Shown here: positions 9,924 through 46,448 of the stretch, piece after piece | Position numbering within the stretch: the stretch's first letter is position 1 | Layout: each line of letters begins with the position of its first letter | Assembly (NCBI GenBank): GCA_030698405.1 | Contig: JAUYMU010000012.1 | Location: 1-64,000, forward strand | Source: Bacteroidota bacterium | Lineage (GTDB): Bacteria > Bacteroidota > Bacteroidia > Bacteroidales > Prolixibacteraceae | Direction of reading: 5' to 3' | Length of the DNA: 64,000 nucleotides | Translations under genes and position numbers: made by a program | Notes under the pieces: model-generated | Told to the model about the DNA's origin: nothing | Seen by the model: only the letters and a program-made list of their open reading frames with translations | Database searches by the model: none

Positions 9924-10595
9924 TTATTTAAACGGTTGCTGTATTAACTGAAGTTTTTCTATCCAACGATTAAAGCGGGTGCATTTTTCTCTTATTCTTG
10001 TCAAGCCAATTTCATTGGCCAGCAAGGAGCCATGAATGGGTTTCTGGTAACCGGTAATAATTCGGACAAGTCGTTTTGATGGGGCTGTTTTATTGCCATC
10101 ATTGACCATTTCAGGATTCTCAAATTGGGCAAACGTTTCTTCCAGGTATTTATAGTCAGAAAATTCATGATCTTCAAAATTATCATCAAATACACGGCGA
10201 TCGCTGAAAAGTAAACCTTCAAATTCATGCAACTGAATGTAAGGGATGAACCGGTTTCCAAATCTGTCATCAATTTCATTGTGCATGGCTTGTTCCAGAA
10301 AATCCATCCGGTCATTTTTGTTCCCGATTCTCAATGATTCATCCCAACCGGGGAAACAGTGTTTTTGATGAATGCCGTAATAATCTATTAACAAGGTTAC
10401 AAAGGCAGAAGTGTCACCGTGTAAATAAATACTGATTTCCTTTTTTAGATCTTTCCAATCAATGATGCCACCTTTGGATTTTTTGATGGTCGGATTTTGA
10501 ATAAAGATGTCTTTCGTACTAAAAAAAGGTTTCAAAACATCATGACAAAAAGCTTGCTCTGTTTGGCCTTCTCCAATAATAATCAGTCGTTTCAT
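9924..10595 (-). CDS. DUF4276 family protein, TOPRIM-like, partner of AAA ATPase
   Basis: A 223-residue protein with the DUF4276 pattern: an N-terminal strand and acidic motif (LIIIGEGQTEQAF, E8 and E12), a central acidic strand (VTLLIDYYGI, about residues 62-71) and HEFEGLLFSD (about 119-128). Such proteins look like compact TOPRIM-fold nucleases and are regularly encoded next to AAA ATPases in defence loci. The start codon overlaps the stop of the ATPase gene by 4 bp (ATGA), implying translational coupling and a shared complex. Nuclease activity is inferred from family and context. No self/non-self determinant can be seen. Confidence 0.8.
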   Translation of the reverse strand: MKRLIIIGEGQTEQAFCHDVLKPFFSTKDIFIQNPTIKKSKGGIIDWKDLKKEISIYLHGDTSAFVTLLIDYYGIHQKHCFPGWDESLRIGNKNDRMDFLEQAMHNEIDDRFGNRFIPYIQLHEFEGLLFSDRRVFDDNFEDHEFSDYKYLEETFAQFENPEMVNDGNKTAPSKRLVRIITGYQKPIHGSLLANEIGLTRIREKCTRFNRWIEKLQLIQQPFK

Positions 10596-11695
10596 TTTGA
10601 AAAGGGTTGTGCCGAGTTAATAATGTTTCGTTGCCACAAATCTCCTAACGAGTAGTCTTCGAGCCATGTTTTTAGGGATTCCGGATCCAACCGTTTGAAA
10701 ATTGATTGCTTCTCGTCCTCGCTGCGGTCAACAGCAACAATATTTTCAGGATCAAAACAATCCACAAGGTTCACCGATTGGGTTGAGATAATGACCTGGG
10801 TTTTTGCCGATGCGGATTTGATCAATGCCGCCAGCTTGGAAATTGACTGAGGATGCAAGCCCAGTTCCGGCTCATCGATAATGATGACAGCAGGAGGTTC
10901 TGGTTGCATCAAAACAGTGGCAAGGGCAATAAACCGAAGTGTCCCGTCGGAAAATTGATAGGCAGAAAAACTGGATTGCAAGTCGCTCTTTTCAACCCAA
11001 CGCAACTCTATTTCTTTTTTATTTAAACGGCTTGGCTCCAATAATAAATGATCGATGTAAGGAGCAACCTGTTGTATCGTCTTCTCCAACCGTCTGAATG
11101 TCTTGGGATATTCCATTTTCAGATAATATAGAAATGCAGGCAGGTTGCGACCATCCGGTTTCAAATAAAGGTTATCTGCCAGATCGCATTCCTTTCTAAG
11201 CATGGAAGTAACTGATGTATCGTGAAAATGATAGATCTGTAAATTCTTGAGATATTTTTGTAAGTAAACGTTTCTATAACTATTAGACCCCGGAATATGG
11301 CTTTCTTCTATATTTTGGGTTCCGTAATAGCTATTAGAATCATCATGCCTTGATACATTGTAACCCGAAACTTCATGCTGTATAAAAAGTCCTCCTTCTT
11401 TTGTTTGGTTTAATTTGAATAAATAGGCATTGTTATTCTCCTTACCCTCCGTAAAAATCATCTTACCATAAAGACTTTCCGTCGTTTTTCGGCCAAAATA
11501 AAGTAAGTTGTCTGATTTTTCTTCAATAACAAAACGTTGTAACTGAAGGTTAAAAATGGCATGAACCATCCGGAAAAATGCAATAAAATTGCTCTTGCCC
11601 GAACCGTTGCTCCCAATAAGAACATTGATAGGCTTGAGTTCAAGCTCCATGGTCTTTATTGATTTAAAACCTTCTATTTTGATGTATTCCAGCAT
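10592..11695 (-). CDS. AAA family ATPase (AAA_21/OLD-like) of a putative defence pair
   Basis: A 367-residue SMC/ABC-type ATPase. It starts with the classic LEYIKIEGFKSIK strand, then Walker A GSNGSGKS (residues about 28-35), an ABC-like signature FSDGTLRFIALATVL (about 245), Walker B VIIIDEPELGLHP (about 270-282) and the switch strand STQSVNLVD. I use the ATG at 11695; an upstream ATG at 11743 adds 16 basic residues that do not fit the fold. Together with the overlapping DUF4276 gene it resembles the ATPase-TOPRIM pairs seen in OLD, PARIS, AbiL or Rlo-type systems. An hsdM relic lies just upstream, so the pair may once have been part of a type I restriction locus. Confidence 0.87.
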   Translation of the reverse strand: MLEYIKIEGFKSIKTMELELKPINVLIGSNGSGKSNFIAFFRMVHAIFNLQLQRFVIEEKSDNLLYFGRKTTESLYGKMIFTEGKENNNAYLFKLNQTKEGGLFIQHEVSGYNVSRHDDSNSYYGTQNIEESHIPGSNSYRNVYLQKYLKNLQIYHFHDTSVTSMLRKECDLADNLYLKPDGRNLPAFLYYLKMEYPKTFRRLEKTIQQVAPYIDHLLLEPSRLNKKEIELRWVEKSDLQSSFSAYQFSDGTLRFIALATVLMQPEPPAVIIIDEPELGLHPQSISKLAALIKSASAKTQVIISTQSVNLVDCFDPENIVAVDRSEDEKQSIFKRLDPESLKTWLEDYSLGDLWQRNIINSAQPFSK

Positions 11696-11756
11696 AGGTT
11701 TAAATTGTTTTTTCCTTCGAAAATGTTTGCCATTTGCAAACATTTTCCAAATATAG

Positions 11757-36134: not shown

Positions 36135-38621
36135 ATGATGGAAAACGAACTTTTTGCCGACGTTATATTGCCATTGCCGCTTGAAGGCCATTTTACTTAT
36201 CGGGTGCCCGTTGCCTTTCATGCGAAAATTAAAACCGGAATCCGCGTTATTGTGCAGTTCGGAAGGCGGAAATTTTTTTCGGCCCTGGTTTATCGTTTGC
36301 ATGAAAATGCTCCTTCAGGCGATTTCGAAATAAAAGATATTGACGCCATTCTGGACGAAGAGCCCATCATCGACCAAAAACAGCTGAAACTTTGGGAGTG
36401 GATAGCCGCCTATTATTGCTGTACTTTGGGCGAGGTTTTTAAAGCGGCGCTGCCTTCAGGCCTGAAACTGGAGAGCCAGACGAAAATCAGCCTCAATCCT
36501 GAAACAAACCTTCCGGAGAATTTAAGTGACAAGGAAAGTGCGGTGATTTTGCTGCTCGAAAGCCGGAAAACGGCCACCGTTCAGGATCTCAACCAATTTC
36601 TTGGGCAACAGTCGTCGTATGCTGTCCTGAAATTGCTGCTCGAGAAAAATGCGGTGATCATGGAAGAGCAATTGCGCGATAGTTACAAACCACGTGTGGT
36701 CACTTTTGTGAAACTTAATCCTGAATACAATTCTGAAGAAAAACTGAATGCCTGCCTCGATTCGCTTAAAAAAGCCAAAAAGCAGGAACAACTCCTGAAA
36801 GTGTTTCTGGACGAAACCATGTTTGGTGAAGGCGGTCTGACCGAAATCAGCAAAAAGGAACTGCTTGAAATCGCAAATGCAACCGACACAGCGCTGAAAA
36901 GTCTGGAAGAAAAGAATATTCTGGAACTGTTTTCGAATGAAATTGGAAGAATCGACCGGCTGCAAAATGCTGATTTGCTGATCAAAGAACTGTCAGCCCC
37001 GCAACAAATCGCGATAGATGAAATAAAAACCCAGTTCGAAACCCATTCAACAATTCTGCTCAACGGGGTAACTTCAAGCGGAAAAACCGAAATTTACATT
37101 CAACTGATTCAGGAGCAGCTCGAATTGGGCAAACAGGTTTTGTACCTTGTTCCTGAAATTGGACTTACCACACAAATTATTAACCGGTTAAAAGTTGCAT
37201 TTGGCGATTTGGCCGGAATTTATCATTCCAAATTCAACGATGCCGAAAGGGTTGAGATCTGGTTCAATGTGCTGAATGAAAAACCGGGAAAGACCGGTCA
37301 GCAATACAAAGTAATTCTGGGAGCGCGGTCGGCAATATTTCTTCCGTTTAAAAATCTGGGATTGATCATTGTTGACGAGGAACACGAAAATTCGTACAAG
37401 CAGTTTGACCCGGCGCCGCGCTACAATGCCCGCGATATGGCCATTCTGATGGGAAATATTCACGGTGCAAAAGTGCTTTTGGGGTCGGCGACGCCTTCGT
37501 ATGAAACGTATTTCAATGCGCGAAGCAACAAATACGGATTGGTTGACCTGACCGAACGTTTTCAGGGTGTTGAAATGCCCGAGCTCATTGCCGCGAATAC
37601 GCAGGAAGCTTACAAGCGTAAACTGATGCGCTCGGTTTTTACTCCTGAACTTTTTGACGGGATTACCGATGCCCTCGCCAACAAGGAACAAGTGATCCTC
37701 TTCCAGAACCGGCGTGGCTTTGCACCATTTGTACAGTGCGGCAAATGCGGCTGGATACCGAAATGCAAATATTGCGACGTAAGCAAAACCTATCATAAAA
37801 ACCAATCGCGACTGATTTGTCATTATTGCGGGCACACCACTTCGCTGATTACAAAATGTGAAGAATGCGGTTCAGACGAGATAAAACCTCGTGGTTTCGG
37901 AACGGAAAAAATTGAGGATGAAATTCAGCTTTTATTTCCTGAAGCGCGTGTTGCCCGGATGGATTTGGATACAACCCGCGCGAAAAAAGCCTACGAACAG
38001 CTTATTTACCAGTTCGAGAACCGTAAAATTGATATTCTGGTCGGAACACAAATGGTTACCAAAGGTTTGGATTTTGACCATGTTCGCATTGTGGGTGTTT
38101 TGAATGCCGATAATTTGCTGAATTATCCCGATTTCAGATCGTACGAGCGAAGTTTTCAGTTGATCATGCAGGTGAGTGGGAGAGCAGGGCGTAAAAATCG
38201 TCGTGGAAAAGTAATTGTTCAGACATCGCAGCCAACCCATCCGGTGATTCAGGATGTAATTGAGTACGATTATATCCGGCTATTTAACCGGCAAATGGCC
38301 GAACGCAAGATTTTCAGGTATCCGCCATACTTCCGGCTTATTAAAATTGTGGTGAAACATCAGAACCGCGACCGGCTCGATCTGGCAGCCACGCATCTGG
38401 CGGCAGCTTTTAAAACTCATTTTAACCGGAATGTGCTGGGGCCGGAATATCCGGTTGTGAGCCGAATTCAACTGTGGTTTCAGAAAGAAATCCTGATTAA
38501 ATTACCACGCGACGGGAAAATTCAGGAGGCAAAATCGAAAATCATGGAGATCATCCATCGCACTAAATCGCAACCAAACAACAGCCAATTGATAGTTTAT
38601 GCGGATGTGGATCCGATGTAG
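36135..38621 (+). CDS. priA: Primosomal protein N' (replication restart helicase PriA)
   Basis: About 828 residues. The N-terminal 3'-OH-binding domain starts LFADVILPLPLEGHFTYRVP. The helicase core carries GVTSSGKTEIYIQLIQ (Walker A), IVDEEHENSYKQ (DEEH box) and LLGSATPSYET. The zinc-binding insert has eight cysteines (CGKCGWIPKCKYC, CHYCGHT, CEECGSD). VGTQMVTKGLDFDHV and QVSGRAGRKNRRGKV are motifs V and VI. I start at 36135 where the family homology begins; an upstream extension to 35994 overlaps the divergent chemoreceptor gene. Complete and typical. Confidence 0.95.
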   Translation: MMENELFADVILPLPLEGHFTYRVPVAFHAKIKTGIRVIVQFGRRKFFSALVYRLHENAPSGDFEIKDIDAILDEEPIIDQKQLKLWEWIAAYYCCTLGEVFKAALPSGLKLESQTKISLNPETNLPENLSDKESAVILLLESRKTATVQDLNQFLGQQSSYAVLKLLLEKNAVIMEEQLRDSYKPRVVTFVKLNPEYNSEEKLNACLDSLKKAKKQEQLLKVFLDETMFGEGGLTEISKKELLEIANATDTALKSLEEKNILELFSNEIGRIDRLQNADLLIKELSAPQQIAIDEIKTQFETHSTILLNGVTSSGKTEIYIQLIQEQLELGKQVLYLVPEIGLTTQIINRLKVAFGDLAGIYHSKFNDAERVEIWFNVLNEKPGKTGQQYKVILGARSAIFLPFKNLGLIIVDEEHENSYKQFDPAPRYNARDMAILMGNIHGAKVLLGSATPSYETYFNARSNKYGLVDLTERFQGVEMPELIAANTQEAYKRKLMRSVFTPELFDGITDALANKEQVILFQNRRGFAPFVQCGKCGWIPKCKYCDVSKTYHKNQSRLICHYCGHTTSLITKCEECGSDEIKPRGFGTEKIEDEIQLLFPEARVARMDLDTTRAKKAYEQLIYQFENRKIDILVGTQMVTKGLDFDHVRIVGVLNADNLLNYPDFRSYERSFQLIMQVSGRAGRKNRRGKVIVQTSQPTHPVIQDVIEYDYIRLFNRQMAERKIFRYPPYFRLIKIVVKHQNRDRLDLAATHLAAAFKTHFNRNVLGPEYPVVSRIQLWFQKEILIKLPRDGKIQEAKSKIMEIIHRTKSQPNNSQLIVYADVDPM

Positions 38622-38744
38622 AGGATCATTTGTTGATATTCTATTTCGGTAGCGATGATTTTTAATTTCATGATTACTGCTTTTTAATCAAATCCTTCAA
38701 CTGTTTCTGTTATCGCTCGAACGATGAGAAATGTGCGTTAATTT

Positions 38745-41396
38745 TCAAGTGTTTAATTCGGGCACAGACGAAACTCTCTTATAAATAACATCATCAAAAT
38801 TCTCAAAATGTGCTTTCCCGCATTCAATTTTCAATTTCTCGGTTACCCTCAACTCCTGACCGGAAGATTTTGTCTCAGCAACAAAGTAAATTTTCTTTTC
38901 TCCTTTGAAAACTACTGCCCAGTCTGGATTATAAGTGCCAATTGGAGTCGGAATTTTAAACCAGAATGGAAGTTTGAAATAGAATTCAATGTCTTCACTG
39001 CTCTCGCAATCCCTCGCAAACTGATTTTCAACATTGCTGTCGAGCGGCATATAATTTTCATAGATCGTTTTTGAACTGTCGGCAATTGTATGTGTAAAAT
39101 CATCCAGGTAGATTTCAAAATCGCTGTCATCAAACAAAGCCATTTCATAAATTTTGCCTCCAATCTTCTCGTATTTAATTCCATCAATCATCAACTTATG
39201 TAATTCGTTTTTAATAGTTGAAACAGCATTGTCCATAAACAACTGAGGATTGATTAATAACTCTTTCAACCGTTTCGAGCCTTTCAGTATTTCCAAAATG
39301 GTGCTGCGTGTCAATTCTGTTTTATTTTGAATGTATGCAAGCATATCAGGAATTTCAAAACCAATACCATAATCGTCATTTGCACTATCGCTTAATAATT
39401 GCCCGGCCACACCTTCGTCAGTAATCAAAACTCTTTTCTTGGTTGATCGGATGGTTGGCTTTTTCGTTTCATCCATTTTGCTGACAGCATTAGCAGCAAT
39501 CGTAATCAGTTTCCTGGTGTCATAATCGACACTGTATTTTGTTTGGAATCTGATCTTCTCCCAAATTTGTAAAAATTTAGGATCCGCTTCAAATCCTTTT
39601 CGGTAACTAACCTTCTCACTTTTACTTTTATCCTTTATTTTGCCAGTGAAATTTACGCCGCAATCTTCCTGAATCTCTTTTTGCAACGCCTTTGCAAAAT
39701 CTTCGTAACGTTCGTTTGCAATAACTGTAAGCTTATTGATATTTCGGTCAAAAATGCGCTGTCCTTCCTGATTTACCGACAAGCGCAGTCCTCTCCCTAT
39801 TTCCTGTCGCTTTTTTATGACTGATTTGGTTTCATTCAAGGTACAAATCTGAAATACATTGGGATTGTCCCAACCTTCACGCAAAGCTGAATGACTGAAT
39901 ATAAACCGAAGCGGAACATTTGCATCAAGCAACTTTTCTTTATCCTGCATGATCAATTTGTAGGTGTCGTCGTCTAACTGTGTTTCTCCTCCAGTGTCTT
40001 TTACCCTGCCTTTGTTGTCTTGCGAAAAATATCCGTTATGAAGGTCATTAACTGGATAATTATTTAACCCTTTATAAACTGGTTTCGAAATTTCTTTTTG
40101 ATAAATCTCTTCAAACCATTGGGCAAACTTTCCTTTAAGTGTATTCCCATCGGAATCATATTCGCGGTAATTTTTTACTTTGTCGATGAAGAAAAGCGAC
40201 AAGACTTTTATTCCCTTATCCTTGTAGCTTTTTTCCTTTTTGAGATGTTCTTCTACTGTTTTGCCAATCATAAAGCGCATAATCTCATCGTTCATTCCGC
40301 CTTGCGTTTCACCTTTCTTTAAAATAATTCCGTTGTTCAATTCAATTTGTTCGTTGCCAAAATCAATTTCGTAGATTTTCAATCCTTCGTATTTTTCATT
40401 TCGATTCGAGAGCAAAAATAAATCGAGATTTTTCCCGCTTGCTGTAACCGATTTTCTGTTAATCCCATCAGTAGTAGCAAAATCAATTTTTACTTTTGCC
40501 TTAATCGCATTTCCGGTTCGGGTAATATTTTCCAATTGGAGAAATGGACTGTTAAAATCATTTTCGCTTACAACAGAATCAACCTCGATCTGTTTTACCA
40601 GTCCCAAATCATAAGCTTTTACCGGATTGAGGGAATAAACCAGATTATAAAGGTTGGTATGTGTGGCAGAATAACGAAGCGTACAAAGAGGATTTAGGTT
40701 TGCTATTGCCCGCTTACGGATTTCTGTTTCCATATTCTGCGGTTCGTCAACAATTACAAACGGATTGCAACTTTGAATAAATTCAATTGGTTTTTTCCCG
40801 GTAAGTTTATCGTTTGGTTTATTGATGATGTTTTCATCCTTAGCAAACGAATCGATGTTGATGACCAATACCTGAATGGTATTTGCAGATGCAAAACCTC
40901 TAAGACCAGAAACTTTTCTGCTGTCGTAAACATTCGAAGTTACCGGAACTTTGTCGTAAAGATTCTGGAAATGTTCGTGTGTAATTTCAAGATTCTTCAT
41001 TACCCCTTCGCGAATAGCCACCGAAGGCACAACAATTACAAATTTTTTGAACCCGTAAAGTTTGTTCAGTTCATAAATTGTGCGGAGATAGACATACGTT
41101 TTGCCGGTGCCGGTTTCCATCTCAACCGAAAAATTCCAGCCATTGCTGATGATTTCATCTTCAGTTGAAATTTTCAAACCGTTATTTTTCTGAACCTGCT
41201 GAATGTTTTCGGTCAACTGGGTAAGTTCTGAAAAGCGGATTTTATTCCCAAATCCATTTTCGGTCAATAATTCGCCAGTCTGACTGATGGTAAATTCAAA
41301 ATCACTATTGTTTAATGGTTGTCCTTCAAAAATATCGGTAATGGCTTTTACCGCCTCTAACTGAAATTCCTGTTTGCTGTCGAAGTGTAGTTTCAT
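38745..41396 (-). CDS. Type III restriction enzyme, Res subunit
   Basis: An 883-residue helicase-nuclease. The SF2 helicase core has Walker A METGTGKTYVYL (about residues 93-104) and the DExx box FVIVDEPQNME (about 213-223), then RYSATHTNLYN and the C-terminal helicase motif QEIGRGLRLSVNQEGQRI. The nuclease is at the C-terminus: PDWAVVFKGE...YFVAETKS (about 824-844) is a PD-x-ExK site. It acts with Mod; Res cuts after ATP-driven communication between two head-to-head sites. It is separated from mod by two inserted genes, and lies 88 bp after the TOPRIM-like gene. Confidence 0.93.
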   Translation of the reverse strand: MKLHFDSKQEFQLEAVKAITDIFEGQPLNNSDFEFTISQTGELLTENGFGNKIRFSELTQLTENIQQVQKNNGLKISTEDEIISNGWNFSVEMETGTGKTYVYLRTIYELNKLYGFKKFVIVVPSVAIREGVMKNLEITHEHFQNLYDKVPVTSNVYDSRKVSGLRGFASANTIQVLVINIDSFAKDENIINKPNDKLTGKKPIEFIQSCNPFVIVDEPQNMETEIRKRAIANLNPLCTLRYSATHTNLYNLVYSLNPVKAYDLGLVKQIEVDSVVSENDFNSPFLQLENITRTGNAIKAKVKIDFATTDGINRKSVTASGKNLDLFLLSNRNEKYEGLKIYEIDFGNEQIELNNGIILKKGETQGGMNDEIMRFMIGKTVEEHLKKEKSYKDKGIKVLSLFFIDKVKNYREYDSDGNTLKGKFAQWFEEIYQKEISKPVYKGLNNYPVNDLHNGYFSQDNKGRVKDTGGETQLDDDTYKLIMQDKEKLLDANVPLRFIFSHSALREGWDNPNVFQICTLNETKSVIKKRQEIGRGLRLSVNQEGQRIFDRNINKLTVIANERYEDFAKALQKEIQEDCGVNFTGKIKDKSKSEKVSYRKGFEADPKFLQIWEKIRFQTKYSVDYDTRKLITIAANAVSKMDETKKPTIRSTKKRVLITDEGVAGQLLSDSANDDYGIGFEIPDMLAYIQNKTELTRSTILEILKGSKRLKELLINPQLFMDNAVSTIKNELHKLMIDGIKYEKIGGKIYEMALFDDSDFEIYLDDFTHTIADSSKTIYENYMPLDSNVENQFARDCESSEDIEFYFKLPFWFKIPTPIGTYNPDWAVVFKGEKKIYFVAETKSSGQELRVTEKLKIECGKAHFENFDDVIYKRVSSVPELNT

Positions 41397-41484
41397 CTGT
41401 TTTTTAATTTGTTTTTTAATTGCCAGATGGAACTCGCCATAATAATCATCCTTCTATGTGCTAGATTTTCTCTCATGGCTCGTT

Positions 41485-42156
41485 TCATGCCAAATAATTT
41501 AGATCACGATAAGCCTCTCGAATAGCATCTTTAAATTTTAAAAATGAAGGCAAAGTATTTAGTTTCTCAATGGTTATTTTCTGTCCAATAGGTAAATAGA
41601 GCTCACTAATTGTCAAATCCTTTCTTTTTCTTTTAGTTAATTCTGCTCTTGCAATTCGAATAGCTTCTTCAATTACTGTTTTTGGATTAGCTATATCTTC
41701 GGGTTGGCGGTTTATATTTAATTCGTTGTTGGTTTTGGTTGTGCCAATTTCCCTTTTCAATAATTCTTTATCAGCCAACATCCAAGCTTCTATCATTTGT
41801 ACAGGAACAACAGCAGTTATAATCTTACAATATTCATTTTCATCTTTTGGATCAATTTCATTCTTTGCAGGAATAATTTTATTTTGGAATGTATTGAAAT
41901 CAGTTGTACTATCAGCATCCGAATGAACACATAAAATCATTATTCCAAATTCTTCTATTCCTTTTTTTGATGAGGCTAATACTTGCTCAACAAACCCTAA
42001 TCCCGCTTTATCAATTGTTATAAAACGCACATAGGTTTCAACGTCTCCATTGCACTCAAACCCGATTTCATCAAAAGTCTTCTTAACAATACTTTCCAAA
42101 AAACGGTTATCTGTAGTTCCTTCGGTCATCAGACCAATAAATATTTGCCTGCTCAT
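41485..42156 (-). CDS. DUF4276/TOPRIM-like protein embedded in a type III R-M operon
   Basis: A 223-residue protein with the TOPRIM-like layout: GLMTEGTTDNRFLESIV (acidic E12, D15) at the N-terminus and MILCVHSDADS (DxD, about residues 72-82) at the next strand, then VPVQMIEAWMLADKELLKREIG (about 113-134), a block shared with DUF4276 and RloB-like proteins. It has the same length as the DUF4276 protein at 9924-10595 and occupies the same position relative to its ATPase, overlapping it by 4 bp (ATGA). Nuclease activity is inferred. Its role inside the restriction operon is unknown. Confidence 0.75.
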   Translation of the reverse strand: MSRQIFIGLMTEGTTDNRFLESIVKKTFDEIGFECNGDVETYVRFITIDKAGLGFVEQVLASSKKGIEEFGIMILCVHSDADSTTDFNTFQNKIIPAKNEIDPKDENEYCKIITAVVPVQMIEAWMLADKELLKREIGTTKTNNELNINRQPEDIANPKTVIEEAIRIARAELTKRKRKDLTISELYLPIGQKITIEKLNTLPSFLKFKDAIREAYRDLNYLA

Positions 42157-43568
42157 TTTGAATCCAATGTTTTAATCGTGTTTTCAAAATCGGCAGTTTG
42201 CAAATATTCTTTTATGGTAGCAAGAGTCAGTTTTCGATCTTGTTCAGTAAATGAAATTATAGTTTGCTGTTCAACATCCTTTGAGACCGGTGTAATTTTA
42301 GTAACATTCATTTTAATTTTTGTCCCTTCCACTTCTGTTATTCGGGTTCTCATTTGTGAAAAATGTACAGAAACATTCATGTCATTTTTCCATTTAATCA
42401 TTTCATTTACTAAAACAGGCGAATGTGTATTTACAATTGCTTGTCGCAAGGGCATGTCAGTATTGATAAAATCAGTAGTTAAGTCCTTGAGCATCCGGGC
42501 CATTGATTTGATTCGGAATGGATGAATTCCATTTTCAGGTTCTTCAAAACAAAGCAATCCAGTATGTTTTTCATCATATTCTAAAATACACAAAGCCAAT
42601 AACCGCAAAGTTCCTTCTGATAGCACTCTTGAAGTAAATTCTTTACCATCCTCTCCTTTAACCGAGATAAGGTATTGTTTATTCTCTTTATCATCAATAA
42701 CACTGACTTCAGTGAAATTGGGTAAGAAACTATTTAGTTTACGTGATATTTCAATCAAATTGTATTCGTCTTGTTGCTGAATCCGATAAAGTGCAGCAGC
42801 TAAATTTTGTCCACTTGAACTAATGGTATCTTCCCCTGTTTTTTTACTCGTTGGCTGCCTTAAATCTTCAGGATTAAGTTGTAGAAATTTCCAGCTTTTC
42901 ATTTCTTCTTTAGCCGCCAGAATATGTCTGAAATCAATTGAATCGAAACTGCTTAATACCGTTTTTGAAGCATTTATTAAAGGAAAATTTCTTTTATTGC
43001 CGCCTTGTACCCCATCCTGAGGTACAACAACAGTAGGGAAGCCATTACGTTCTTCAGTGAAGATATATGGTATTGCCCGCCTTCCACCCTTAAGAATCTT
43101 AGGTCGCCAATATTCAAGCTTGTCTTTTGGAATTAGTTTAATCCACAAATCATCATTGTGTTTTAAGTTTTCTAAATGTTCAAAAACAACGGCCAAATCT
43201 TCGATACCCGATTCGTTTTTAAATCTTTTGATTTTTAATTCGTATCGCAAACGGGTATATTTTAAATCTGCAATTCCTCCCCAGGCGTCTTTTACTTTTT
43301 TATTCACTATCATCTCCACTGTAAACTCCATTTCAGAGGCACAATTTTCTTCATCATATTGAGTAAACAACTCAATCATTTCGCCTCGTTGCTCTTTGAA
43401 AGCATTTTGAAGTTTATCTGTTTCGGCTAGTCGCGAAAGCAACATCAAAGCATCAAACAGATTACTTTTCCCGGAAGCATTTGTACCCGCGATAATCGTT
43501 AGCGGCGTAAATTCCATTTCAAAGTTTTGAAATGATTTAAACCCGTTTATTTTTAAATATGTTATCAT
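42153..43568 (-). CDS. AAA family ATPase embedded in a type III R-M operon
   Basis: A 471-residue SMC/ABC-type ATPase starting TYLKINGFKSFQNFE with Walker A GTNASGKS (residues about 28-35), signature VLSEGTLRLLALCILEY (about 318), Walker B GLLCFEEPENGIHP (about 338) and switch VNTHSPVLVNEM. The middle region (about 100-300) is a long insertion without named domain. It begins 11 bp after mod and overlaps the TOPRIM-like gene. Related ATPases (RloA, AriA, OLD-family) act as oligomeric sensors that hold or feed a nuclease partner; that role is inferred here. Confidence 0.87.
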   Translation of the reverse strand: MITYLKINGFKSFQNFEMEFTPLTIIAGTNASGKSNLFDALMLLSRLAETDKLQNAFKEQRGEMIELFTQYDEENCASEMEFTVEMIVNKKVKDAWGGIADLKYTRLRYELKIKRFKNESGIEDLAVVFEHLENLKHNDDLWIKLIPKDKLEYWRPKILKGGRRAIPYIFTEERNGFPTVVVPQDGVQGGNKRNFPLINASKTVLSSFDSIDFRHILAAKEEMKSWKFLQLNPEDLRQPTSKKTGEDTISSSGQNLAAALYRIQQQDEYNLIEISRKLNSFLPNFTEVSVIDDKENKQYLISVKGEDGKEFTSRVLSEGTLRLLALCILEYDEKHTGLLCFEEPENGIHPFRIKSMARMLKDLTTDFINTDMPLRQAIVNTHSPVLVNEMIKWKNDMNVSVHFSQMRTRITEVEGTKIKMNVTKITPVSKDVEQQTIISFTEQDRKLTLATIKEYLQTADFENTIKTLDSK

Positions 43569-43579
43569 ATCCTAAAAAT

Positions 43580-45553
43580 TTAGATCGTTTTAAAATCAAT
43601 TTCCGCATCTTTCATCTGTAACACTGCATTGGTTTTCAGTTGGTCGTTGCCGGTGAAAAGCTGATCAAGGGTAATTACTTTTTGAAGCCCCACCCCAACC
43701 CTCCCCGAAGGGGAGGGAGTTAGGATCGAATCTATAATTTCCTGGTTCATTGCTTCCAAAGCGACAATCAATTCTCCATCTTTAACTGAATAATAGCTGT
43801 CTGTACCCTGAGCTTGTCGAAGGGCGACTTTATCTGTTAACAAATACCCCGCTTTGAGGATTAACTCATAAAGCATATTTTCTTTTTCGCTTCCTTCGCG
43901 TACCGGATCGGTAAACAGTTCGAGTTCTTGTTCCAGATTTTCTTCCGTTATTTCACTGCCCCTCCATATTTTGAAATTGGAAGAGGAGAGTTTGAATACT
44001 TTGAAACCTAAATCCTGAGTTGTTTGATTTTCCTGATTCGAGGCATCTTCAAATTTGATTTCTCCGGCTTTTTTGGCTTTCAATTGTTCATTTTCAATTA
44101 ACAGTTTATTGATTACCCGGCGTATTCTTTCTTTTGAGATATCGGCAATGGTTTTATACCCAGCTTTGAATGCTTCGCTGCCTTCGTCGCATGGTTCGGG
44201 CAACTGCACCAAAATAAATTTACGATTGCCCCCATCTTCTTTGTTGAGTTCTAATACTGCTTGGGCGGTTGTACCTGAACCACCGAAAAAATCCAAGATA
44301 ATATCTAGTTCATTTGTTGATTGCAAAACAATCTTTTTAAGCAAATTAACAGGTTTAGGAAAGGCAAAATATCTTCCATCAAAAAGCTCTGAAAATTCTT
44401 GTGTCCCATTTGTTGTAAATCCGACTTCTTCCTTCTTCAAAATTGAAGAAAATCCAGTTTGTGTAGATAATAAATCCTTTAAAAATTTCTTTTGTCTTGG
44501 TCTGCCGTTGGGATTAGTTGGGAAAAGAATCTCTTTGTTTTCAATCATTTTAAGAATATTCTCCTTTGATTTAGACCAACCTCTTGCCGGATTTGGAGGG
44601 AAAGAGAACCCAGTTCTAGGATCGACAATATCATAATGCAGATTTGGTCGCTGATCTTTAGTCGCTAATCCTGATAAATCTATACTTGCCCAAGGCCCTC
44701 TAGAATCGTGATCGGGGTTTTTATATTTATTTATGTCAATTTCTTTCCCTTTGAATGAAAAAAGTGCATTTTTCGAATATGCTAAAACATATTCATGATC
44801 AGTAGAAGCAAAATTTTCATTGCGATTATCTGCATTTTGTCTTCTGTGCCAAATCATATTTAGTAAAAAATTCTCCTCCCCAAAAATTTCATTCATCAAC
44901 AACCTCAGGTTGTGCACTTCGTTATCGTCGATATGCACAAAAATTACCCCATCATCACGCAATAGGTTTTTTGCAAGGAACAAACGGGGATACATCATGC
45001 TTAGCCAGTTGCTGTGGTAATGCCCACTGTCGCGGCTGTTTCGGCGGAAGAAACCTTCTTTCATCAAATAGCCTTCTTCGTCTTTTTCGCCAATGCGTTT
45101 CTGGTATTCTTCACGGCTTTCTTTAAAACTGTCGGGGTAAATAAAACTGTCGTTTCCGGTATTGTAAGGCGGGTCAATAATGATGCACTTAATTTTATTG
45201 TAGTATGCTTTTTGCAGAACCTTCAGCACTTCGAGGTTTTCGCCTTCAATAAAAACATTTTCGGTAGCCTCTCCCCGGCCCTCTCCAAAGGAGAGGGAGT
45301 CAAAACCATCGTTGATCCCTTCACCTGGACAAGGTTTTAGAGTGGCAGTGGTGGTTTGTTGCAGAACCTTAAATGCTTCCGATTTTCCAGCCCAATTCAA
45401 AACATAGCGTTCGTTACTGAATTCGATGTTTTCTTTTCCAAGCGTTGCCTGAAGTTTTTCCCAATCAATCTTTCCTTCTGTAATGGTTTCAGGAAAAAGT
45501 TGTTTTAGCTTTTCCAACTGATCCTGAACTATGCTTAATGATTCGCCTGTCAT
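43580..45553 (-). CDS. Type III DNA methyltransferase, Mod subunit
   Basis: About 657 residues. Beta-class N6-adenine methylase order: DPPYNTG (motif IV, residues about 127-133) before DFFGGSGTTAQAVLEL (motif I, about 425). The recognition domain lies between. Mod gives sequence specificity and modifies one strand; alone it methylates, with Res it restricts. I start at the ATG at 45553. The protein carries three short in-frame repeat-derived inserts: residues about 74-98, about 577-583 and about 610-623. None hits a catalytic motif. No simple-sequence tract typical of phase-variable mod genes is seen. Confidence 0.92.
   Translation of the reverse strand: MTGESLSIVQDQLEKLKQLFPETITEGKIDWEKLQATLGKENIEFSNERYVLNWAGKSEAFKVLQQTTTATLKPCPGEGINDGFDSLSFGEGRGEATENVFIEGENLEVLKVLQKAYYNKIKCIIIDPPYNTGNDSFIYPDSFKESREEYQKRIGEKDEEGYLMKEGFFRRNSRDSGHYHSNWLSMMYPRLFLAKNLLRDDGVIFVHIDDNEVHNLRLLMNEIFGEENFLLNMIWHRRQNADNRNENFASTDHEYVLAYSKNALFSFKGKEIDINKYKNPDHDSRGPWASIDLSGLATKDQRPNLHYDIVDPRTGFSFPPNPARGWSKSKENILKMIENKEILFPTNPNGRPRQKKFLKDLLSTQTGFSSILKKEEVGFTTNGTQEFSELFDGRYFAFPKPVNLLKKIVLQSTNELDIILDFFGGSGTTAQAVLELNKEDGGNRKFILVQLPEPCDEGSEAFKAGYKTIADISKERIRRVINKLLIENEQLKAKKAGEIKFEDASNQENQTTQDLGFKVFKLSSSNFKIWRGSEITEENLEQELELFTDPVREGSEKENMLYELILKAGYLLTDKVALRQAQGTDSYYSVKDGELIVALEAMNQEIIDSILTPSPSGRVGVGLQKVITLDQLFTGNDQLKTNAVLQMKDAEIDFKTI
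43687..43724. repeat. Palindromic CCCTCCCC-GAAG-GGGAGGG repeat inside mod, 3' part
   Basis: CCCCAACCCTCCCCGAAG runs into GGGAGGGAG, forming a GC-rich hairpin core. In the mod frame it reads as SPSGRVGVG near the C-terminus, a low-complexity insert unlike the surrounding sequence. The frame stays open through it. Confidence 0.8.
43806..43824. repeat. CCCTGAGCTTGTCGAAGGG repeat inside mod
   Basis: This 19-mer is a well-known dispersed repeat that I recognise from many genomes, usually intergenic. Here it is read in frame by mod as RQAQGT (residues about 577-583). Confidence 0.75.
45268..45300. repeat. Palindromic GC-rich repeat inside mod, 5' part
   Basis: CCTCTCCCCGGCCCTCTCC and the following AAAGGAGAGGGAG form the hairpin; in the mod frame it reads SLSFGEGRGE, upstream of the catalytic DPPY. 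The neighbouring CCTTCACCTGGACAAGG (45316-45333) may be part of the same element. Confidence 0.8.
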
Positions 45554-45640
45554 TATCTGGATTTGAAATTTTTGTTGTAAATATAACCGTAATCTTTGAA
45601 CTACCTTGTGCAAAATGCCCGACAAATTGCCCTAAAAACA

Positions 45641-45673
45641 AAACCCATCGAACAGAATTTGTTCGATGGGTTT
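45641..45673 (-). terminator. Terminator hairpin between mod and the membrane protein gene
   Basis: AAACCCATCGAACA pairs exactly with TGTTCGATGGGTTT around a 5-base loop. On the minus strand the stem is followed by TGTTTTTAG. It separates the transcript arriving from 46448 from the restriction operon. Confidence 0.88.
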
Positions 45674-45821
45674 CTTTTCGACCTCAGTCTCGGATATTTT
45701 AACTTACACATCGAGGTTCTTGTCTCCGGTAGGTTTCATTTTTTGTTCAGCGTCTTTCATTTTTACAAACGCATCGAGGTCGATGATCCCGATATCTGGC
45801 TCTTTAGCAGAATTAAAAGTT

Positions 45822-46448
45822 TTAGAATTTTCCGAATTTAATAACGAGTCCGATATTGGTTCCTTCCAGAATATCGGGATTGGTATCGACCATTTCAATT
45901 TTGGAAGTAAAACGATAGCCCAGTGATGCTGCAAGCCGCAAATAGCGTGTCATGTTAAATTCCAGTTCGACCGAAGGTTCCAAAACCAGAAATACATCCT
46001 CGCTCGAATCATCAAATAACCAGTCATTGTCCCAATGAGGACGATCTTCGATTTTCGCAATGCCACCAACTCCGAACAACACCGGAAACGACACATGGAC
46101 CGGCAGTCGCGGGAAGAGAATTGGCTCGAGGTAGAGACCGCCATAACCTCCGGCCAGATTGTAATCCAGATCGTTATCGCGCCAGTTGTGGTAATTTATG
46201 TCGTTTACAAAGCCATTACCACCCAAACCGATGGCAAACGAATGGTCGATGATCCAGGCACCACGGGCGCCCATCATAAATGCATCTTTTCCATCAATTT
46301 GGGTATAATTGAATGAAAGGGCTCCGTAGCCACCGTTTTTTCGGTCTTTTGAGAAGATGGTAGAAATCTGGTCATTATCATTGTATTCCTGAGCATTGGC
46401 CAACAGGAAACCTAACCCCAGAAAAATCAGGAGAGTTAACTTTTTCAT
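45822..46448 (-). CDS. Outer-membrane beta-barrel-like protein, unknown function
   Basis: A 208-residue exported protein; the signal peptide ends LLANAQ (about residue 19). The mature part has alternating hydrophobic/polar strands rich in Gly and aromatic residues (SFAIGLGGNGFV, LAGGYGGLYLEPI, FPVLFGVGGIA) and ends in a strand with C-terminal Phe (GLVIKFGKF), as in small outer-membrane barrels. I do not recognise a named family. It lies 29 bp after a second barrel-like gene. Coding-like sequence continues in another frame downstream (45704-45821), which might reflect a frameshift. Confidence 0.75.
   Translation of the reverse strand: MKKLTLLIFLGLGFLLANAQEYNDNDQISTIFSKDRKNGGYGALSFNYTQIDGKDAFMMGARGAWIIDHSFAIGLGGNGFVNDINYHNWRDNDLDYNLAGGYGGLYLEPILFPRLPVHVSFPVLFGVGGIAKIEDRPHWDNDWLFDDSSEDVFLVLEPSVELEFNMTRYLRLAASLGYRFTSKIEMVDTNPDILEGTNIGLVIKFGKF

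Follow-up and report, generated by a model that had tools for sequence, protein, structure and literature searches.

We describe a type III restriction-modification (R-M) operon in a 64,000-nucleotide stretch of DNA from a member of the Prolixibacteraceae (Bacteroidota; contig JAUYMU010000012.1 of assembly GCA_030698405.1, positions 1 to 64,000), hereafter the window. Between the methyltransferase gene mod and the endonuclease gene res, the operon holds an ATPase gene and a DUF4276 gene that, by their profile matches, are the candidate defence system catalogued in PADLOC as HEC-01. We think it likely that the operon carries HEC-01 as a self-contained module for second-line defence, in a slot between mod and res whose content is exchangeable, a reading that draws on sequence and gene content. 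The slot is seen in the genes that occupy the interval, in the different cargo lying beside closely related Res proteins, in tight spacing, and in the presence or absence of the whole block.

The operon reads mod, ATPase, DUF4276-like gene, res, and every gene is on the minus strand. This is the architecture reported in an earlier note on this DNA, and the coordinates and the Pfam and PADLOC matches bear it out, including the spacing of 11 nucleotides from mod to the ATPase gene, a 4-nucleotide overlap within the pair, and 88 nucleotides to res. The mod gene (43580..45553) encodes a type III DNA methyltransferase of 657 residues when read from the ATG at 45553, the frame being open further upstream from a TTG at 45625, and matches Pfam N6_N4_Mtase (135.9 bits) and PADLOC MTase_III (PDLC03634, 617.1 bits). 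The res gene (38745..41396) encodes a type III restriction endonuclease/helicase of 883 residues, with matches to Pfam ResIII (54.1 bits) and RE_endonuc (115 bits) and to PADLOC REase_III (PDLC03647, 979.6 bits). Both frames are intact. The N6/N4 methylase domain of Mod and the SF2 helicase and endonuclease domains of Res, within one operon, place the locus in the type III R-M family. That Mod and Res methylate self and cut unmethylated DNA is established for these families and would by analogy hold for the window operon.

The first gene of the middle pair, here HEC-01A (42153..43568, minus strand, 471 residues), encodes an ABC ATPase like those of SMC, Rad50 and PtuA. It matches PDLC04184 with 468.7 bits over profile positions 1-462 of 464, and Pfam AAA_21 with 101 bits. 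Its partner HEC-01B (41485..42156, minus strand, 223 residues), a DUF4276 protein and putative TOPRIM-like effector, matches PDLC04212 with 283.8 bits over positions 3-221 of 222; its Pfam DUF4276 score of 29.9 bits is slightly below the cut-off of 30.2. An ATPase adjoining a DUF4276 partner is what defines HEC-01, and the idea of an undescribed pair was rejected accordingly. The AlphaFold model of HEC-01A (pLDDT, the predicted local distance difference test, 85.7) resembles SMC/Rad50 heads and the PtuA ATPases of Septu and retron systems, with query TM-scores of 0.36-0.48 in Foldseek; among these are an Smc4 head, with the best E value (1.9e-12, TM-score 0.46), and the retron Ec78 complex (E 6.9e-12, 0.41). 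A profile search of PDB sequences gave no row at 1e-5 for the ATPase and one irrelevant row (E 1.1) for HEC-01B.

In 19 aligned HEC-01B sequences, E12, D16, H78, D80, D82 and E123 are invariant, and in the predicted structure (pLDDT 95.0) E12 follows strand 1 while D80 and D82 follow strand 3. TOPRIM domains have an alternating alpha/beta core, with a Glu after strand 1 and a DxD motif after strand 3. We take E12, D16, D80, D82 and E123 to sit where a TOPRIM-type catalytic set would, which makes a role as effector nuclease plausible for HEC-01B.

The interval between mod and res was surveyed through relatives of the window Res. The phylum sample (395 genomes) gave 67 with a match at E 1e-30, the window's own counted, and the class sample (395 genomes) gave 23 at E 1e-60, four in common with the phylum sample. 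From 59 of the 85 matching genomes besides the window's own, 60 loci were read; the 26 genomes left out by choice had mostly weak, partial or contig-end matches. A FastTree phylogeny of Res with 90 rows sets apart a group of 18, including the plasmid record L225, that we assume to be EcoP15I-like. Outside this group, mod and res can both be seen, in that order, in 43 of the 60 loci. Among the 60, mod cannot be seen in three (L138, L143, L177), and in 11 the order of the two genes is reversed. Co-directional extra genes occupy 36 of the 43 intervals, and in 33 they match defence or candidate families through Pfam, PADLOC or a blastp link, the other three holding unknown genes. The remaining intervals contain a transposase-like gene (L147), a 98-residue open reading frame (ORF), or nothing (five loci). 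The gene maps place no opposite-strand ORF longer than 64 residues in any mod-res interval. Mod is followed by the first cargo gene within 20 nucleotides in 34 of 42 loci, and the last cargo gene overlaps res by 4 nucleotides in 23 of 42 (window and L028 counted in both); starts were chosen mechanically for these counts, the Res frame of L140 is broken by one TAA, which makes its spacing unreliable, and the ATPase start of L156 is miscalled upstream.

Loci of the EcoP15I-like group present the opposite picture. With mod before res, the two genes are directly adjacent in 15 of 15 cases (three from the phylum and class samples, 11 from Campylobacterota, one plasmid), eight of these calls assuming, by length only, that an ORF of about 195 residues in Campylobacterota is the second half of a split mod. 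A sample of 150 genomes from Campylobacterota, the phylum to which a Sulfurospirillum contig belongs, gave 20 with a match, each of whose loci was read; outside the EcoP15I-like group, five carry cargo, one is direct and one has no visible mod. Eight plasmid records, hand-picked from 60 listed of 267 and so giving no rate, comprise two with cargo (annotated as a PDDEXK nuclease and as RhuM), five direct and one EcoP15I-like. In four of the plasmid loci (L221-L224), a helicase-related or SNF2 gene and then a DUF4391 gene (a hypothetical gene in L224) lie directly upstream of mod, and L154, L155, L170 and L172 have similar-sized ORFs there. A second add-on position upstream of mod is possible.

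The cargo is diverse. Its firmer defence members are GmrSD/HEC-06 (717 bits, in L139), Abi_2 (L148, together with a PD-Lambda-4_A-like protein), Fic/Doc (the L152 group, with a PDC-M59A gene called RhuM-like after the annotation of L220), SoFic (the L161 group), PifA (KAP/PifA in L201) and CBASS. The last, in L203 (3675-9269), is type II-like, with a patatin effector, cyclase, E1-E2 and JAB genes, and is accompanied by AlbA; L203 and L201 are from Campylobacterota, as is L202 with an AAA_13 gene of family PDC-S06 that is PrrC-like. Other intervals carry YhcG/DUF1016 proteins of family PDC-S02 (the L166 group, L198, L218), SLFN_AlbA, alone or alongside a PHP-AAA protein or ParA (L140, L145, L178, L187, L193, L200), PDC-M19 (L141), Bro-N of family PDC-S13 (L144), KilA-N of family PDC-S22 (L181), HipA_C (L183), DndB (L192), and an ATPase whose nearest family is NsnB, beside a partner that has no match (L146). 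Loci given as groups owe their assignment to blastp clusters rather than individual scans, and three small ORFs in L149 fell outside the family scan. Cargo genes with no Pfam match occur in L148 (7641-11471, the PD-Lambda-4_A-like gene, 139 bits), L150 (4472-5170, from the Pfam scan alone) and L179 (10743-11744, with no PADLOC match either).

Cargo varies at a fixed position. On the Res tree, cargo identity needs at least 31 changes and cargo presence or absence nine. Pairs of loci with close Res proteins hold different cargo: HEC-01 in L142 and YhcG in L218 (Res 90.6% identical), PrrC-like/SoFic in L202 and CBASS/AlbA in L203 (90.6%), L145 and L146 (87.0%), and HEC-01 in the window and GmrSD in L139 (80.7%). 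L152 and L161 (95.8%) have in common a RhuM-like gene, truncated in L161, which is followed by Doc in one and SoFic in the other. Across all these pairs Mod is conserved over its final 100 residues (68-97% identity) and Res over its initial 100 (70-93%), with the cargo between.

HEC-01 itself is mostly found elsewhere. A scan of species genomes with a four-row ATPase alignment yielded at least 536 confirmed relatives, of which the best 80 (40-95% identity) were analysed; tblastn of the fetched stretches found no mod or res similarity at 75, eight of these having less than about 600 nucleotides on one side. HEC-01 is thus hardly an R-M subunit, and, since close relatives mostly lack mod and res, it should work without the window's R-M system. 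The pair is therefore not specific to the window operon; what is characteristic is the interval, with its many unrelated modules. Mod or res similarity was found at five loci, L028, L040, L044, L057 and L055, and L028 is the sole complete four-gene operon among them. L040 and L044 are two contigs of one metagenome-assembled genome (MAG), both ending inside the ATPase gene, with mod 11 nucleotides upstream. Their HEC-01A proteins are 98% identical and their mod genes 51% and 56% identical to the window Mod, which suggests mod allele variation beside constant cargo.

Two records from the relatives deserve separate mention. L282 (MT836135.1, labelled 'Bacteriophage sp.' and UNVERIFIED, from human faeces) contains a HEC-01 pair, 68% and 51% identical, with neither mod nor res; it may be a bacterial contig. 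Viral contigs scanned with the ATPase gave no match. L033, labelled Limnohabitans, has an upstream gene that agrees with that of L032 (Flavobacterium) at 261 of 322 positions, and with it the phylum sample yields the same matches as with the window; it is possibly a mislabelled MAG.

Embedding in the mod-res interval recurs. On the ATPase tree the embedded copies form three separate pairs (window and L028; L040 and L044; L057 and L055) divided by stand-alone lineages, so that the embedded state needs at least three changes. A single clade of five embedded rows is rejected by the approximately unbiased test (p 7e-5), as is one of six rows including L055 (p 3e-51 on an 81-row tree and 5e-27 on a 25-row tree). 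Repeated entry and escape from an embedded ancestor are equally possible. Other HEC-01 subfamilies also lie between mod and res, PDLC04175 with PDLC04188 in L142 and L151 and PDLC04182 with PDLC04202 in L156, which brings to three the HEC-01 subfamilies known in the interval. A single insertion of the pair, which the earlier note held would, along with independent movement everywhere else, speak against a functional link with R-M, was rejected on both counts. With the window and L028 set aside, 78 loci include two more embedded cases (L040/L044 and L057), a rough p of 7e-6 against random placement if placements are independent, genomes have 3500 gaps and Res occurs at a frequency of 67/395. 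Because random placement rarely gives two further embedded copies, the position appears to be selected, which implies no particular trigger. The earlier suggestion of an ATPase-effector pair embedded in a type III operon thus gains from recurrence with different subfamilies and loses its novelty as to the pair. The window also contains a second HEC-01 pair (9924-11743), away from R-M genes and 30 kb from the embedded one; its subfamily, PDLC04175/04188, is the one embedded in L142 and L151.

The window copy shows how the block behaves as a whole. Two same-genus relatives, L246 and L255, have flanks 92-95% identical in DNA and lack the entire four-gene block: blastn homology ends at 38622 or 38634 and restarts at 45817 or 45819, and with the gene maps this delimits a presence/absence block at 38635..45816. 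In the eight other relative stretches fetched priA is not visible, and they are uninformative on block absence. The Bacteroidales MAG of L028 has the same four genes in the same order, with the ATPase 95%, the partner 84% and Res 83% identical to the window, and none of seven window flank proteins was found there. Since the block is absent from L246 and L255 and the window's flank proteins from L028, the operon was gained or lost as a unit. The best Mod alignment of the two reaches only 57% while the ATPases are 95% identical, as would be expected if target recognition varies. The junction of priA (which ends at 38621) with the gene at 45822 is variable in the genus, L246 and L255 having in place of the R-M block either a 175-residue ORF with a small ORF or a 231-residue ORF that looks to us like a REP-type transposase. 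Among the 8 of 75 matching plasmid records listed, those closest to the window's PriA are from Bacteroides, Phocaeicola and Parabacteroides (46-51% identity), with Listeria following at 36%, in keeping with an origin in Bacteroidota. Between mod and the adjoining minus-strand gene lies a terminator-like inverted repeat (45644..45670), read from the sequence by eye rather than scored by a terminator scan.

Whereas HEC-01B and res overlap by 4 nucleotides in L028, they are separated in the window by 88 nucleotides (41397..41484, minus strand) that constitute a copy of a dispersed repeat, ending at the res start codon. The repeat has 24 matches in its own genome, the window copy counted, and 16 of the 21 copies read (window included) run directly into a longer open frame starting ATGAAA (MK). 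The copies, of which 20 of the 23 others were read (L262-L281), are about 90 nucleotides long, mostly begin ATGAAACGA and end at ATGAAA. The repeat resembles a small mobile element targeting start codons, which it would rebuild while adding a new leader. Judged by this comparison, the 88-nucleotide gap is a secondary change, and without the repeat the window would show the overlap of L028. An Rfam search of the window at gathering score matched a tRNA alone and gave no match for the repeat copy.

How might such an operon work? Mod and Res would form the first line of defence. HEC-01A, an ATPase of the SMC/Rad50/PtuA kind, most likely senses infection-associated DNA or DNA ends and would then license HEC-01B, with its TOPRIM-like acidic motifs, to act as a nuclease in a second and probably self-sacrificing line. 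The spacing and the gain or loss of the block suggest that a module in the slot is transcribed with mod and res, coupled to res in translation and transferred together with them. The activities, the trigger and the abortive outcome are all inferred. It is tempting to go further and see, in one large group of type III R-M operons, a dedicated exchange platform, in which second-line defence modules of many kinds are swapped between the mod stop and the res start by recombination in the conserved flanks, are coupled to res and act conditionally on R-M failure, the window pair being a type III counterpart of PrrC or PARIS. We regard this extension as speculative and rather unlikely.

Closest to that extension is a model in which HEC-01 is a guarded backup, held idle by Mod and Res or monitoring them, and set free once restriction has been blocked or evaded by a phage. 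The earlier note suggested a trigger of this PARIS-like kind, which is possible. Under this model the slot would be selected as guarding needs co-expression. Recruitment of three HEC-01 subfamilies to one interval, the embedded L040/L044 and L057 far above random placement and the tight spacing to res all favour it, and it has precedents in PrrC with EcoprrI (PMC3710099, PMC12707154) and PARIS with Ocr (PMC12839542). The same slot takes many unrelated modules, CBASS and GmrSD among them, that are thought to be self-sufficient and have no need of R-M as a guard, and the pair's relatives mostly do without mod and res; we consider guarding doubtful. Somewhat less probable still is that the pair is a passenger, neutral cargo that travels with the operon in an interval tolerant of insertions since both R-M genes stay intact. 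HEC-01 pairs do lie between co-directional housekeeping genes, 18 of 69 are closely flanked by co-directional genes on both sides, which is about the background expectation, cargo loci may decay (L055, L057), and L147 has a transposase-like gene in its slot. Against this, no interval has an opposite-strand ORF above the 64-residue limit, and tolerance alone predicts neither the repeated families nor the absence of cargo from the EcoP15I-like loci, which have the same gene order. A new type III restriction complex of four proteins, in which HEC-01A and HEC-01B would be indispensable, we hold to be very improbable. The four genes are tightly linked, are kept together in the window and L028, and have overlapping ends in L028; gene content nevertheless argues strongly against a subunit role, for the pair's relatives mostly lack mod and res, and relatives of the window mod and res carry other genes, or in some cases none.

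Several observations weigh against the exchangeable slot with second-line cargo that we prefer. Cargo is missing from five of the 43 loci and, outside the EcoP15I-like group, from one of six Campylobacterota and five of seven plasmid loci. Independence is limited, several loci being from a single genus, and FastTree gave long-branch warnings on the Res tree. The HEC and PDC labels are themselves guilt-by-embedding candidates, so counting them as defence is partly circular. A clade uniting the window with L028, L040 and L044 survives the 0.05 threshold (p 0.051). Of the embedded relatives, L057 has a C-terminal piece of mod 11 nucleotides upstream, the pair, a damaged res and then the contig end, and L055 has a mod remnant alone beside the pair.

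Nor do the pairs have any special preference for operons that would explain their entry into the mod-res slot. A close co-directional neighbour lies upstream of 31 of 71 pairs and downstream of 28 of 74, against a background of 367 of 742 (49%), with L055 scored as stand-alone; an operon preference was rejected, there being no excess over background and the downstream side being lower (p 0.048). In the 56 linked co-directional neighbours scanned, the commonest families, among the 25 of 92 listed, are housekeeping ones (such as RsgA, D-Tyr-tRNA deacylase, homoserine dehydrogenase and prolyl oligopeptidase), and two of these neighbours carry an MmeI-type methylase domain. Similarly laid-out gene strings surround HEC-01 pairs in several genomes (L032, L033 and L037; L031, L034 and L035); the neighbour tallies point to RsgA/D-Tyr-tRNA deacylase and homoserine dehydrogenase/kinase, with a per-locus scan for L031 only.

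The nuclease also weighs on this side. A fold search of PDB and BFVD with the HEC-01B model found nothing at E 0.001, nor any TOPRIM entry in the 50 rows listed, so a significant TOPRIM match was rejected; a resemblance to an RloB-like protein is non-significant (E 0.026). Because a significant structural match is lacking, nuclease activity is a guess from motifs. In the DUF4276/TOPRIM-like label first given to the protein, the TOPRIM part reflects the order of the motifs.

If the exchangeable slot is real, one odd operon becomes a general and testable rule, that interchangeable modules gather at one defined place in a common class of R-M systems. Unknown genes in the slot, for example in L148, L150 and L179, become candidates for defence functions. 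Operon pairs with near-identical Res and different cargo are natural material for asking whether failed restriction triggers the cargo or the operon simply carries it.

Among known systems, the window pair is closest to HEC-01, whose models it matches almost in full. MADS includes a DNA methylase as well; the window ATPase scores 159.6 bits against MAD3 (NF047739, cut-off 420) and the partner 17.4 bits against MAD4 (NF047734, cut-off 160), which makes the pair a distant relative outside the system. PARIS likewise joins an ATPase to a small partner. Its AriA profile matches the window ATPase (104.6 bits), probably through the general AAA_21 domain, but AriB is not one of the 15 PADLOC families that the window partner matches, which at E 0.01 are HEC-01B and PDC families, and in Pfam the partner matches DUF4276 alone at E 0.01. 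RloA/RloB systems, with which the earlier note compared the pair, have an RloB-family partner in a type I hsd locus, whereas the window partner has no RloB match in Pfam and its locus is type III.

The letters HEC stand for 'Hma embedded candidates', according to papers citing the source preprint (doi 10.1101/2024.01.29.577857). Citing papers say that HEC and PDC candidates were named by guilt-by-embedding, and one of them reports several HECs, including HEC-06, to be active (PMC12988326). The window pair is flanked by Mod and Res rather than placed in an Hma locus, and no Hma model is among the PADLOC rows for the operon genes (the 25 best rows for two of them). An exchangeable type III mod-res interval is not described in the literature searched, mostly titles and abstracts, a scope that does not establish its absence from print, and a search pairing DUF4276 with type III restriction found nothing. 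Embedding in R-M operons is already published, and the type III mod-res slot is new as far as searched. Embedded toxins were described in 2013, with PrrC inside EcoprrI and R-M operons that contain HEPN, RhuM and Doc genes (PMC3710099); DarTG2 inside a type I R-M locus of E. coli followed in 2025 (PMC12255303). These are likewise second-line modules embedded in R-M systems, with several cargo families in common with the slot described here, but PrrC and DarTG2 sit in type I loci. A 2026 report describes OLD-ABC ATPases with TOPRIM proteins as 'backup effectors' in BREX loci (PMC12839542). There too an ATPase and a putative nuclease have been recruited to a methylation-based system, in BREX and related systems rather than, as in the window, between the mod and res genes of a type III operon.

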